Assembly (NCBI RefSeq): GCF_001424755.1
Contig: NZ_LMRF01000001.1
Location: 919,967-983,966, forward strand
Source of the DNA: Marmoricola sp. Leaf446
GTDB lineage: Bacteria; Actinomycetota; Actinomycetes; Propionibacteriales; Nocardioidaceae
Length of the DNA stretch: 64,000 nucleotides
Direction of reading: 5' to 3'
How positions within the stretch are numbered: position 1 is the stretch's first letter; each line of letters begins with the position of its first letter. Below, in pieces: positions 4,060-6,725 of the stretch. Below the pieces are notes generated by a model that was not told where the DNA came from, searched no databases, and worked only from the letters and a program-made list of their open reading frames with translations. The translations under genes and the position numbers were made by a program.

Positions 4060-4156
4060 GGGCACAGACGGTGATCGTCCGTACGCGGTGTAGGAACCCG
4101 TATGACACCACCCTCCGTGCCACCAACGCAAGACGGCACGGAGGGAGGTGGAGCAG

Positions 4157-4297
4157 ATGCCGAAGAACCCCAAGCAGACCAGTGCGAAGGCCGCCAAGGC
4201 GGCCAGCAAGGTGCTGCGCGACGGGCGTACCAGCAAGGCCAGCAAGACGGCCGCTGGGAGCGCCTTGGCGCAGTCGCCCAAGCGCCGCGGTCGCTGA
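4157..4297 (+). CDS. Small basic Lys/Ala/Ser-rich protein
   Basis: This 46-aa ORF was found by reading the sequence. It has a good ribosome site (GGAGGGAGGTGG) just before the ATG. The product is strongly basic, with about eight lysines and a KRRGR tail, and low in complexity, with recurring K-A-[SA]-K steps such as KAASKVLRDGR and TSKASKTAAGSAL. No signal peptide or membrane segment is visible. I do not assign it to a named family. It sits 98 bp upstream of the His-Pro-Glu peptide gene but is separated from it by a strong hairpin, so it may be its own transcript. Being short and lysine-rich, it could be a nucleic-acid-associated protein or an acceptor for the neighbouring conjugation enzymes; both are speculation. 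Confidence 0.6.
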   Translation: MPKNPKQTSAKAAKAASKVLRDGRTSKASKTAAGSALAQSPKRRGR

Positions 4298-4303
4298 CGA
4301 GGT

Positions 4304-4328
4304 CGGCCCCGCCGCAGCGGCGGGGCCG
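4304..4328. terminator. 12-bp GC stem-loop after the small basic ORF
   Basis: CGGCCCCGCCGC at 4304-4315 pairs perfectly with 4317-4328 around a single unpaired A. It begins six bases after the stop codon of the 46-aa ORF, so it probably terminates or attenuates that transcript before the E2-E1 operon. No T-tract follows. Confidence 0.55.
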
Positions 4329-4342
4329 GCCCTCGGTTCAAC

Positions 4343-4368
4343 CACCTGGCACCAACCGGTGGCAGGTG
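4343..4368. promoter_or_regulatory. Inverted repeat upstream of the conjugation operon
   Basis: CACCTGGCACC and GGTGGCAGGTG form an 11-bp inverted repeat with one mismatch and a 4-base centre (AACC). It lies 27 bp upstream of the His-Pro-Glu peptide start, in the only space available for a promoter, so it is a candidate operator. It could instead be a transcript hairpin. No regulator gene is adjacent. Confidence 0.4.
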
Positions 4369-4395
4369 CATCGCTCACAGTACGGAGATCCGAAC

Positions 4396-4527
4396 ATGGC
4401 TAAGCCCGAGCACCCCCAGCACCCGGAGCACCCGGAGCACCCGGAGCACCCGGAGCACCCGCCCAAGCCCCCGACCCCGGGGCCGGCCGACCCGCCCGAC
4501 ACTCCCGGCGACCGCCCGGTCGCCTAG
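4396..4527 (+). CDS. His-Pro-Glu repeat peptide of the E2-E1 operon
   Basis: A 43-aa ORF with an ACGGAG ribosome site 8 bp before its ATG. After MAKPE come one HPQ and four HPE triplets, then a Pro/Asp-rich tail ending TPGDRPVA. The DNA repeat is nine bases (CACCCGGAG), spanning 4411-4461. About 40 percent of residues are proline, so a folded beta-grasp domain is not possible; it should be disordered or polyproline-like, and the histidines could bind metal. The stop codon is only 3 bp before the E2-E1 gene, implying translational coupling. By position it occupies the slot of a modifier or substrate. Whether its C-terminal Ala is activated or its Lys3/Lys24 are acceptors is unknown. I recognise no named family. 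Confidence 0.7.
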   Translation: MAKPEHPQHPEHPEHPEHPEHPPKPPTPGPADPPDTPGDRPVA

Positions 4528-4530
4528 GCA

Positions 4531-6261
4531 GTGGCCTGGTTCGAGGAGAACCCTGACCTCCTCCAGCGCGAACTCCACGCGCTGGAGGCGGCGGGCCTCT
4601 CCTGCACCGTCGACGAGAGCGCGCGTCAGGACGAGCACCTGCTGAGGCTGGAGGTGTCCGGCACGATCGAGGGCGACACCCACACCTGGATGTGCGCGTT
4701 CCCCGACGCCTACCCCTACTTCCCGCCGTTCGTCACCGGCCCTGACCGCGGCTACCGCTACCACCATCACCCGGACACCGGCCAGTACTGCCTCCTGCGA
4801 GACGGGGACGGCGGTTGGAAGCCGAGCATGACCCTGGCTCAGCTCCTGCGCGAGCAGTGGCCGAAGTTCCTGGCGGCACAGCGGGCTTCGTCCTCCTCGG
4901 AAGCGACCCCGGCGCTGGAGGTGCAGCAGGCCGAACCCTGGACCCAGTACCTGCAGTACGAGGATTCGAGGCAGTCCGTGTTGTGGGATGCCACGCTCGA
5001 GCCGCCGGAGTCGGAGTCCGCCGGGTTCATCGAGGGCGTGCCGTTGGGCAAGTACAACGGCTTCAAGTGGTTGGCGCTGGTCAGGTCCGACCTTGGTGGC
5101 CAGCACGTGGCAGGTCGCGACCTTGGCGAGGTTGCTCGAGAGATCTACGCCGCCGGGCGGGAGGAAACCATCCCGTGGGTCAGGCTGGCGTCTGCCCCCG
5201 GTGGGACCGATCCTGCCGCCTGGTGGGAGGAGGCCGCCAGAGCGTGGGAGGTGGTCCGGCCCGCGGTGATGGCAGGGAAGAAGAAGAGCGGCGGGGCGGT
5301 CACGCAGCTCCTGGTCACCTTCCCCGAGGAGGTCGGTCATCGCGAGCTGGGATGGGGTTGGGTCCTTGTCCGCGCCCAACGACGGGGGAAACCCAAAACG
5401 ATCCCGCCCACATTCCAGCGCGTCGTTCGCGTCGGCCCAGACGACCTCGCGCGGCGCGCGCCTGCGTTGGCGCCCATACAAGATAGACGTGTCCTGGTCG
5501 CAGGGCTCGGAGGCCTGGGTTCACAGATCGTTCGGCTGCTAGCCCAGACTTCCCCGGCAGAGCTGGTCCTGTGGGACCCCGACGTGGTCGAGGCCGACAC
5601 CGCGGTGCGGTGGGCGGGAGCATTGGCCATGGACGGCGTCCCGAAGGCCGTGGCGCTCGCCCACGATGTCCTCGACACCCAGGCTCACACCAGGCTTGAG
5701 CTGCTCGGTGCCCGCGTCGGTCACACCCGCGGCAGCATGGGCCAGCAAGCGAACAGTGTTGGCGACCAGCATGGGGACCTGGTGAGGCGGCTGCCTGACC
5801 TCGACCTGGTCGTAGACGCCACCGCCAACCGATCGGTGCAGCACTACCTCTCGGTTCAAGCTCGGGACCACGGGGTCGCCTACATGCGCGCCGACGCGCA
5901 GTACGGCGTGTGGTCGGGCCTGGTCGGCCTCCAGCGACCGGGCGGCGAGGTCTGCTGGATGTGCTGGATGCATCACGTCAACGACCAGACCATCCCCACG
6001 CTGCTCAGCGACCCCGACGGCGAGATCCAGCCGCCCGGGTGCGGTGCGCCGACGTACGTCGGCACGGCTTTCGACCTGGCCCCGATCGCGGCGGAGTCCG
6101 TCCGGATGGCGACGTCGTACCTCACGGAGACGGGGGAGGCGGACCGCCACCCCTTCGACGTCATGACGCTGCGGCTACGTGATCACGACGGAAGGCTGAC
6201 GGTCCCCACCTGGGAAGGACACGAGCTCGAAAGGCACCCGGCGTGCCCCAACCACGGGTGA
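4531..6261 (+). CDS. E2-E1 fusion, Cap2-like ubiquitin-type conjugating protein
   Basis: A 576-aa protein joining a ubiquitin-conjugating (E2) domain to a ThiF/E1 adenylation domain. The E2 part (about 1-115) has the proline-rich YPYFPPF segment, then HHHPDTGQYCLL with the presumed catalytic Cys87. Residues about 125-315 form a linker domain. The E1 part has the nucleotide loop GLGGLGS (325-331), Asp349/Asp351, Arg360, Lys372, then CWMC (475-478), PPGCGAPT with presumed catalytic Cys504, and a terminal CPNH that with CWMC could bind zinc. This is the arrangement of Cap2 in type II CBASS, where the enzyme conjugates the C-terminus of the cGAS-like synthase. No such synthase is present here. 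The GTG start follows the repeat-peptide stop by 3 bp and lacks a clear ribosome site. Confidence 0.9.
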   Translation: MAWFEENPDLLQRELHALEAAGLSCTVDESARQDEHLLRLEVSGTIEGDTHTWMCAFPDAYPYFPPFVTGPDRGYRYHHHPDTGQYCLLRDGDGGWKPSMTLAQLLREQWPKFLAAQRASSSSEATPALEVQQAEPWTQYLQYEDSRQSVLWDATLEPPESESAGFIEGVPLGKYNGFKWLALVRSDLGGQHVAGRDLGEVAREIYAAGREETIPWVRLASAPGGTDPAAWWEEAARAWEVVRPAVMAGKKKSGGAVTQLLVTFPEEVGHRELGWGWVLVRAQRRGKPKTIPPTFQRVVRVGPDDLARRAPALAPIQDRRVLVAGLGGLGSQIVRLLAQTSPAELVLWDPDVVEADTAVRWAGALAMDGVPKAVALAHDVLDTQAHTRLELLGARVGHTRGSMGQQANSVGDQHGDLVRRLPDLDLVVDATANRSVQHYLSVQARDHGVAYMRADAQYGVWSGLVGLQRPGGEVCWMCWMHHVNDQTIPTLLSDPDGEIQPPGCGAPTYVGTAFDLAPIAAESVRMATSYLTETGEADRHPFDVMTLRLRDHDGRLTVPTWEGHELERHPACPNHG

Positions 6262-6725
6262 CGACCGCCTGGCTGGAGCCGGCGGGTCTCGTCGAGCTGG
6301 TGGGTGAGGCTGCCCGGCATCGTGACGAGGAGACAGGCGGGATGCTCCTGGGGTACCGCAACGACGGCGCCATCGTGATCACCGATGTCGTGGGTCCGGG
6401 ACCCGCCGCCCGCCACGGACGGTTCACCTTCCGCCCCGATGCCCAGTGGCAACAGGGTCAGGTCGCGAAGACCTACGCGGCCAGCGGTCGGACGACGACC
6501 TACCTCGGCGACTGGCACACCCATCCTGGCGGGAGCACCACGCTGAGCCGTCGCGACATTCGAACGCTGCGTGGCATCTCGCGGGCCAAGGGTGCCCGCC
6601 AGCCGCAGCCGCTGATGGCCGTACTCGCCTTCGATGACGACCCCCAGGACGGCCGCCTGGTGGTGTGGGAGCTACCGGGCCGCTACCGACGCCCCGTGCC
6701 GTGCCGCCTTCAGGTCATGCACTAG
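6243..6725 (+). CDS. JAB/JAMM (MPN) metallo-isopeptidase, Cap3-like
   Basis: A 160-aa zinc peptidase of the JAB1/MPN/Mov34 (prokaryotic JAB) family. All JAMM ligands are visible: the glutamate in EETGG (about residue 30), His92 and His94 in HTHP, and Asp105 after the spacing H-x7-S-x2-D (Ser102). Such enzymes cleave the bond made by E1/E2 systems or trim a modifier C-terminus; Cap3 of type II CBASS is the close analogue. The gene overlaps the E2-E1 gene. The GTG at 6243 has GAAAGG 8 bp upstream, while the in-frame GTG at 6258 would give a 4-bp GTGA overlap and may be the true start. It ends the operon. No effector gene follows. Confidence 0.88.
   Translation: MPQPRVTTAWLEPAGLVELVGEAARHRDEETGGMLLGYRNDGAIVITDVVGPGPAARHGRFTFRPDAQWQQGQVAKTYAASGRTTTYLGDWHTHPGGSTTLSRRDIRTLRGISRAKGARQPQPLMAVLAFDDDPQDGRLVVWELPGRYRRPVPCRLQVMH

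Follow-up and report, generated by a model that had tools for sequence, protein, structure and literature searches.

A predicted disordered, proline-rich peptide encoded before a bacterial E2-E1 fusion as a proposed free-standing protein modifier

We propose that a 43-residue, proline-rich peptide encoded directly before an E2-E1 fusion gene in Marmoricola sp. Leaf446 is a free-standing disordered modifier, one that would be activated and attached by the E2-E1 protein and trimmed or removed by a JAB isopeptidase encoded next to it. We put the probability of this reading at roughly three in four. The conserved part of the peptide is its C-terminus, not its (E/Q)HP repeat, and the peptide gene is under purifying selection. 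An initial annotation of this DNA had interpreted the peptide as a possible disordered modifier, and that interpretation is supported by our analysis; the chemistry proposed for it would be that expected from the enzyme and from Cap2 of CBASS.

The three-gene module in Marmoricola

The window, i.e., the whole stretch of DNA that was analyzed, comprises 64,000 nucleotides of a 3.8-Mb genome. Downstream of nrdR and of a gene for a class II ribonucleotide reductase, three closely spaced + strand genes encode the peptide (4396-4527), the E2-E1 fusion (4531-6261), and the JAB protein (6243-6725). The peptide stop codon TAG (4525-4527) and the presumed GTG start of E2-E1 at 4531 are separated by 3 bp and lie in the same frame, and the 3' end of E2-E1 overlaps the JAB ORF by 19 bp; the start codon of the JAB gene is presumably also GTG. 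A GGAG site is located 8 bp 5' of the peptide ATG. The features of the module are as follows.

4384..4387, + strand: putative Shine-Dalgarno-like GGAG of the peptide gene, from the sequence
4396..4527, + strand: 43-aa Pro-rich, predicted disordered peptide with C-terminal RPVA, the proposed modifier (conservation, selection)
4408..4461, + strand: tandem array of 6.0 copies of a 9-bp unit that encodes (E/Q)-H-P triplets (TRF)
4513..4524, + strand: conserved C-terminal codons R-P-V-A, R-P-V-G in most relatives (locus survey, alignment)
4531..6261, + strand: E2-E1 fusion, 576 aa, presumed GTG start (Pfam, PADLOC, AF2, Foldseek)
4531..4896, + strand: E2 (UBC) domain, approximately residues 1-122 (profile match to UBE2L3, AF2, Foldseek)
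4789..4791, + strand: Cys87 codon, predicted E2 catalytic cysteine, invariant like His78 (alignment, profile)
5419..6258, + strand: E1 adenylation domain, approximately residues 297-576 (invariant residues, structure matches)
6040..6042, + strand: Cys504 codon, candidate E1 catalytic cysteine, invariant (role suggested by other E1 enzymes)
6243..6725, + strand: JAB/JAMM isopeptidase, 160 aa, presumed GTG start (Pfam Prok-JAB, motif)

Translation of 4396-4527 gives MAKPEHPQHPEHPEHPEHPEHPPKPPTPGPADPPDTPGDRPVA followed by the stop (43 aa), which confirms the ORF that had been reported at this position, 3 bp 5' of E2-E1 and ending in RPVA. The (E/Q)-H-P triplets come first, followed by a Pro-rich tail. 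They are encoded by a 9-bp unit, GAGCACCCG, present in 6.0 copies with 93% matches (TRF), and it scores highest of the 21 tandem arrays that were listed in the window. The open frame extends far 5' of the peptide ATG (141 aa, 4102-4527). On the opposite strand, an ORF at 4338-4502 (-) reads through the repeat as a Cys-Ser-Gly repeat and is most likely the mere complement of the 9-bp unit.

The window peptide had no match in Pfam, PADLOC, or NCBIfam, and none of 35 aligned peptides of its family (described below) matched Pfam or NCBIfam at 0.01. We found no description of the peptide in the literature searched; papers on Bub and later surveys of E1/E2 families might mention one.

Conservation, selection, and variants of the peptide

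The first hints came from plasmid and genome loci in which a Pro-rich ORF ending in RPVG, RQVG, or RPVA stands before E2-E1. An alignment query of the genome contigs yielded 53 loci, and a single-sequence query (P0002) yielded none. Because loci were detected via an E1 motif, E2-E1 groups without this motif fall outside the sample. For a survey of 64 homologous loci, we took from each locus the ORF richest in Pro in the vicinity of the E2-E1 start, whatever its tail. The survey left out L002 (on the contig of L013) and L003 to L007 (a diverged subfamily with no Pro-rich peptide). It included near-identical strains (one peptide is common to L011, L035, L039, L043, and L079), so that independent cases are fewer than 64. 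Distinct peptides number about 48 (49 were listed, one of which is a false frame of L055), in a count whose start filter missed L019, L029, and L053.

By its own terms, the idea of the initial annotation would have been contradicted by an ORF missing beside most E2-E1 homologs or by a C-terminus without conservation. Neither was the case: a Pro-rich ORF lay directly 5' of E2-E1 in 60 of the 64 loci, and all 60 ended in V-G or V-A plus 0 to 3 residues. The same kind of end occurred in 1 of 60 other Pro-rich ORFs of these loci, which is read in a different frame across the L055 peptide, and in 433 of 12,604 other ORFs. The four loci without a Pro-rich ORF are one at a contig edge (L014), two 3' fragments (L054 and L062), and a frameshifted copy (L061), in which the peptide runs into the frameshifted E2-E1. 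Forty-nine of the 53 genome-contig loci were positive; they come from Actinomycetota, Pseudomonadota (alpha and gamma), Bacteroidota, Acidobacteriota, and Planctomycetota and from one record that has no phylum label and is, by elimination, the KSB1 MAG L017. Aligned E2-E1 sequences are 22 to 41% identical to that of the window.

The 35 aligned peptides were chosen and already known to end in V-[G/A]; the unbiased test is the 64-locus survey. They are 39 to 76 aa long and average 37% Pro. Val occupies position -2 in 35/35 rows, and position -1 is Gly in 33 and Ala in 2, the terminal Ala of the window peptide being a variant also found in a Nocardioides locus (L013). Arg is present at -4 in 31/35 rows, and Pro is present at -3 in 25/35 and at -7 in 33/35. 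Among relatives, the tail is mostly R-P-V-G, and the HPE repeat is not conserved. Copy number of the repeat, which the initial annotation had thought able to vary, does so among different species (9 bp by 6.0 in the window, 18 bp by 8.9 in L013, and 9 bp by 7.0 in L056), and not within one species.

Neither Cys, Phe, Trp, nor Tyr occurs in 31 of the 35 rows (the row of L059 starts one codon early and therefore counts a false Tyr); His is absent from 3/35 and Lys from 1/35. The charge-hydropathy line places all 35 rows on its disordered side. The earlier claim that the peptide cannot fold as ubiquitin agrees with these data, in that 37% Pro, few aromatic residues, predicted disorder, and the lack of a family match argue against a beta-grasp fold. 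Five aligned rows extend past V-G (by QQ, GR, R, Q, or QG). Across the loci, QQ, R, Q, QG, or GR is found beyond V-G in six, all six of which have a JAB ORF, and the peptides that end in Gln have only the GQQ and GQ forms (L009, L016, and L022).

In a quick tree of 34 enzymes, the window E2-E1 groups with those of L013 and L002 (RPVA) with a support of 100. Most branches include RPVG tails, and REVG is seen at two unconnected points of the tree, so the tail predates most of the splits. Genes for the peptide are readily overlooked: the peptide is included in the gene table of 1 of 10 fetched plasmid loci that carry the peptide (Hymenobacter), the table itself being incomplete.

Purifying selection was evident in 12 Bradyrhizobium and Mesorhizobium peptide genes, in which pN/pS over the last 24 codons was 0.087 and third positions held 712 of 817 pairwise differences. 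Across 146 genomes of the genus of L026 (Bradyrhizobium by title), a search limited to close relatives of the Bradyrhizobium peptide found it in 13 genomes (14 places), and all 13 fall within the 16 genomes that have E2-E1 or its remains. E2-E1 is a single open frame at least once in 9 of the 13 and is in pieces in 4 (G673, G697, G707, and G771). The other three of the 16 had no peptide match. G687 has a 133-residue E2-E1 fragment, and in G723 the E2-E1 copy is interrupted by two in-frame stops and lacks a nearby Pro-rich frame. G811 encodes a diverged open-frame E2-E1; its Pro-rich frame, which a frameshift has probably split, ends in RRVGCDSADK, six residues past V-G, and escaped the peptide search. 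Decayed Bradyrhizobium copies (L061, L113, L122 to L125, and L128 to L132), in which the peptide is fused to E2-E1 or the genes are in pieces or have internal stops, suggest frequent loss.

The system is rare among relatives of the window. A class-level search (E value of 1e-30, 394 genomes) returned only the genome itself and one partial match, and a family-level search at 1e-10 returned 7 of 294 genomes, its own included. In viral contigs, 12 loci gave distant E1 matches only, the best of them 24% over residues 262 to 576.

One locus carries the tail on a larger protein. In L029, a Hymenobacter MAG in the Bacteroidota branch, the ORF before E2-E1 (1593-2090, 161 aa from ATG) has two DUF1508 stretches (1e-21) and a Pro-rich tail ending in NPPRVPGDRPVG (DRPVG), so that the same tail is carried by a folded protein, as it is in CBASS. 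We take DUF1508 here to be YegP-like. YegP homologs are reported to follow the capK+capS immune regulators in 57 cases (PMC13373217), and a link between these and the DUF1508 protein of L029 is only suggestive. The diverged Nocardioidaceae loci L003 to L007 have no Pro-rich peptide. In the four of them with a readable upstream stretch (L003, L005, L006, and L007), another ORF, acidic and of low complexity, precedes E2-E1 and ends in PVG or AVG. L005 and L006 look identical. The acidic ORFs contain a block like TYERLPGGGHRVTRRTTRR and are perhaps a second class of fold-less tag.

The enzymes, the proposed chemistry, and the alternatives

The E2-E1 protein matches Pfam ThiF (1.4e-12, above the cutoff) and PADLOC E1-E2 (2.4e-21); its match to Pfam Prok-E2_B is below the cutoff (0.0035, 17.8 of 25.4 bits). 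A 26-row N-terminal profile matches the UBC enzyme E2 L3 (UBE2L3) at 4.7e-7 and aligns Cys87 with the UBE2L3 catalytic cysteine, with His78 close to the HPN motif, so that the candidate catalytic Cys lies downstream of a His-Pro-Asn-like motif. With an AF2 model of the E2 domain (pLDDT 84), Foldseek retrieved E2 enzymes, as judged by their titles, including one UEV, with a probability of ~1 and a best E value of 2.1e-3, none being ≤1e-3. The AF2 model of the full E2-E1 protein (pLDDT 75) has Cap2 (7to3) as its top Foldseek match (9.6e-23, TM of 0.54). VIA-align matched the E1 domain to E1 enzymes with Z scores of up to 25.9; Cap2, though first in Foldseek, is not among the 50 matches listed there, an absence that does not speak against it. 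Residues H78, C87, G325, G327, G330, D349, D351, R360, K372, D429, and C504 are invariant in 28 rows (H78 and C87 also in the 26-row E2 alignment), and the ATP-site signature of E1/ThiF proteins, a glycine motif with Asp, Arg, and Lys, is present. The retained catalytic residues and the matches to UBE2L3 and Cap2 point to an intact-looking E2-E1 machine of Cap2 build.

The window JAB protein matches Pfam Prok-JAB (1.1e-12, above the cutoff) and NCBIfam CBASS Cap3 (1.1e-13, below the cutoff), and a match to the NCBIfam 6A-MBL cap2_3 model also fell below the cutoff. It has the E-x-GG and HTHP...S..D elements of a JAB/JAMM zinc site. A JAB ORF was present in 58 of 60 loci (L001, L002, and L008 to L065), 50 of these 58 with the zinc-site motif by pattern; the other 8 are truncated, frameshifted, variant, or wrongly picked frames. 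No JAB ORF was found beside E2-E1 in the Halomonas loci L019 and L053, where the peptide tail HREVG ends at the Gly. A downstream ORF on the opposite strand of L019 resembles a resolvase by eye. When ORFs of at least 70 aa were compared across 58 loci, E2-E1 (58/58) and JAB (56/58) recurred in most of them, and a third gene of this kind was sought and not found.

According to our proposal, the E1 domain would adenylate the C-terminal Ala43 of the peptide (Gly in most relatives), and the peptide would then be transferred to a cysteine of E1 (probably Cys504) and from there to Cys87 of the E2 domain as a thioester. E2 would join it to an amine of the target, most likely a lysine. JAB would take the tag off again and, in relatives with 1 to 3 residues past V-G, would trim the precursors. 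The two Halomonas loci, which have no JAB and no residue past V-G, are what this model would lead one to expect, as two related cases and hence few. The enzymes would read mainly the tail R-P-V-G/A, and the Pro-rich body could serve as a flexible spacer or a recognition surface in which the repeat number can change. All of these chemical steps are our inference, as are the target and the likely involvement in phage defense or stress.

The alternative that survives best, which we nevertheless consider improbable, is that the peptide acts noncovalently on E2-E1, as an activator, an inhibitor, or a scaffold. Its C-terminus would then sit in the adenylation site without being transferred, and the enzyme would use another modifier. 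Binding alone would explain both the linkage and the conservation of the tail, and serving as docking ligands is a common role of Pro-rich peptides. However, the Gly/Ala end, the three or fewer removable residues, and the zinc-site motif of JAB (50/58) form the layout of a processed modifier, and no alternative modifier gene recurs in most of the 58 loci (ORFs of at least 70 aa).

Slightly less probable again is that the peptide is the precursor of a modified product, its C-terminus being adenylated on the way to an antibiotic or signal as in microcin C7. MccB, which has a short peptide as its substrate, is among both the structure matches (Z of ~22 to 23) and the sequence matches (E value of 6e-12) of the enzyme, an indication that E1-like enzymes do act on short peptides. 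In such a route, neither a JAB isopeptidase nor an E2 domain whose His78 and Cys87 are invariant would have an evident place, no third gene of exporter type is common to most loci, and the peptide body is not conserved, unlike what would be expected of a bioactive product.

We regard as very unlikely a role in metal binding, a structural role, or a leader function unconnected with the chemistry of the enzyme, in spite of the His-rich repeat of the window peptide, its low-complexity, Pro-rich composition, and its site just 5' of the enzyme gene. Metal binding had been named at the outset as an alternative and is weakened by the 3/35 rows without His. Conservation resides at the C-terminus, the extra codons past V-G in some loci would be needless for a leader peptide, and co-inheritance with E2-E1 likewise speaks against a metal-binding or leader peptide. 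Finally, a chance open frame in GC-rich repetitive DNA, to which the frame open far 5' of the ATG (4102-4527) might point, has a negligible probability and is refuted by conservation across loci and phyla, by the low pN/pS with mostly third-position substitutions, and by the clean presence/absence pattern with which the peptide is co-inherited with E2-E1.

Genomic neighbors and known conjugation systems

None of the 8 neighbors of the module in the window matched PADLOC at 1e-3; they are housekeeping genes, and a defense role is therefore not supported at the window locus itself. For the other loci, up to 4 neighboring ORFs were taken from each (161 ORFs, 41 loci) and 85 of the 161 were scanned, giving raw counts. 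PADLOC named 7 of these 85 ORFs capP. A CapP-like peptidase is found near the module in 8/58 loci, and neighbors elsewhere also match RmrA models (partly CapP-like proteins again), GajA, PtuA, DRT-associated proteins, and restriction proteins. In three loci, HTH genes on the - strand are divergent from the peptide gene (L025:3308-3736, L033:2446-2820, and L041:3358-3798), next to CapP genes on the + strand (L025:2451-3311, L033:1535-2449, and L041:2459-3361; PADLOC capP, 3.2e-71 to 9.1e-77). By analogy, these HTH genes may be CapH-like. The CapH+CapP pair is reported to control immune operons on DNA damage (PMC13373217), and the divergent HTH genes beside CapP suggest DNA-damage control of the module. 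The neighboring genes named above favor a role in defense or stress, but two plasmid loci are situated among metal-resistance genes, one locus is on a rhizobial plasmid, and the window neighbors include no defense gene.

Just 5' of the module in the window there is also a Lys-rich ORF of 49 aa (P0004, 4148-4297, +), present as a single copy in the genome. We considered it as a conserved target or partner and rejected it: a homolog was found in 1 of 38 other relatives, in a genome without an E2-E1 match, and none was found in plasmids. One two-repeat relative follows JAB in the Colwellia module (L025:6202-6468, E value of 2.4e-8).

Bil and Bub operons are comparable to the module in combining a bacterial E1, an E2, a modifier, and a protease, and they differ from it in that their enzymes are split or otherwise built than the E2-E1 fusion. 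BubA is a folded ubiquitin-like protein. The BilA modifier, too, is a folded ubiquitin-like protein, unlike the peptide (PMC11354881), and 219 of 544 Bub operons are reported to adjoin CapW or CapH+CapP (PMC13373217). Fusions of E2 and E1 accompanied by JAB were predicted as operons 6a to 6c by Iyer, Burroughs, and Aravind in 2006 (PMC1779556). The prototype of 6c is a plasmid neighborhood of NGR234, and the E2 of 6c has Cys replacing His (PMC1779556); L011, on pNGR234a, differs from this description in keeping the His (invariant H78) and hence may not be the 6c gene. The portions of PMC1779556 consulted do not mention a Pro-rich peptide for operons 6a to 6c.

In microcin C7, the E1-like domain of MccB acts on a short unfolded peptide, as that of the module would. 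MccB stands alone, with no E2 and no JAB, and its substrate is a heptapeptide ending in Asn; the module has an E2 fusion and a V-[G/A] tail. The residues past V-G in six loci are comparable to those of ubiquitin precursors. The likeness to Pup drawn by the initial annotation holds for size and disorder and does not extend to family: none of the 35 peptides matched PF05639 or any other Pfam family at 0.01, and the Marmoricola genome has a separate, regular Pup gene (G000:C1:1539169-1539363), so that two unrelated disordered tags may coexist. Pup is ligated via its C-terminal Glu by PafA, which is unrelated to E1/E2, whereas the conserved end of the peptide family is V-G/A.

A closer model than Pup, and one that the initial annotation did not mention, would be the flexible, Gly/Ala-ended tail of the CBASS cyclase, which is conjugated by Cap2. 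Type II CBASS has an E2-E1 fusion and a JAB protein (Cap2 and Cap3), as does the module. In CBASS, the tail is part of a folded cyclase accompanied by an effector gene, whereas the module encodes a separate peptide of 39 to 76 aa with a near-fixed R-P-V-G/A, and no cyclase or effector recurs in most of the 58 loci. For Cap2, the closest relative with a known function, conjugation of cGAS to lysines is reported to proceed via a C-terminal Gly or Ala; a Gly-to-Ala change in cGAS lowers conjugation without abolishing it, and natural cyclases end either way (PMC10097602). In Bacillus cereus CBASS, the conjugated residue is the Ala that ends a 30-residue flexible tail (PMC11153139). By analogy, the peptide could be regarded as such a CBASS tail without the body.

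To our knowledge, E1/E2 modifiers have either a beta-grasp fold or, in CBASS, the form of a folded enzyme with a tail. By the features examined here, we file the module as a variant of bacterial E1/E2/JAB conjugation that would act on a tail, as Cap2 and Cap3 do in CBASS, and that is not CBASS, Bil, Bub, or Pup. We judge it fairly probable that the module represents a mobile family of cascades, spread over multiple phyla, that uses a disordered, Pro-rich R-P-V-G tag and needs no ubiquitin fold, with a tail that is portable (L029) and with related low-complexity V-G tags (L003, L005, and L007). If true, the peptide would supply the missing substrate of an E2-E1 family that has no recurrent ubiquitin-like gene, and it would offer a minimal, transferable conjugation tool. 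A tag that is a free peptide would mean that a tail can suffice as the code, and it would stand beside Pup and the CBASS cyclase tail as another tail-only tag.
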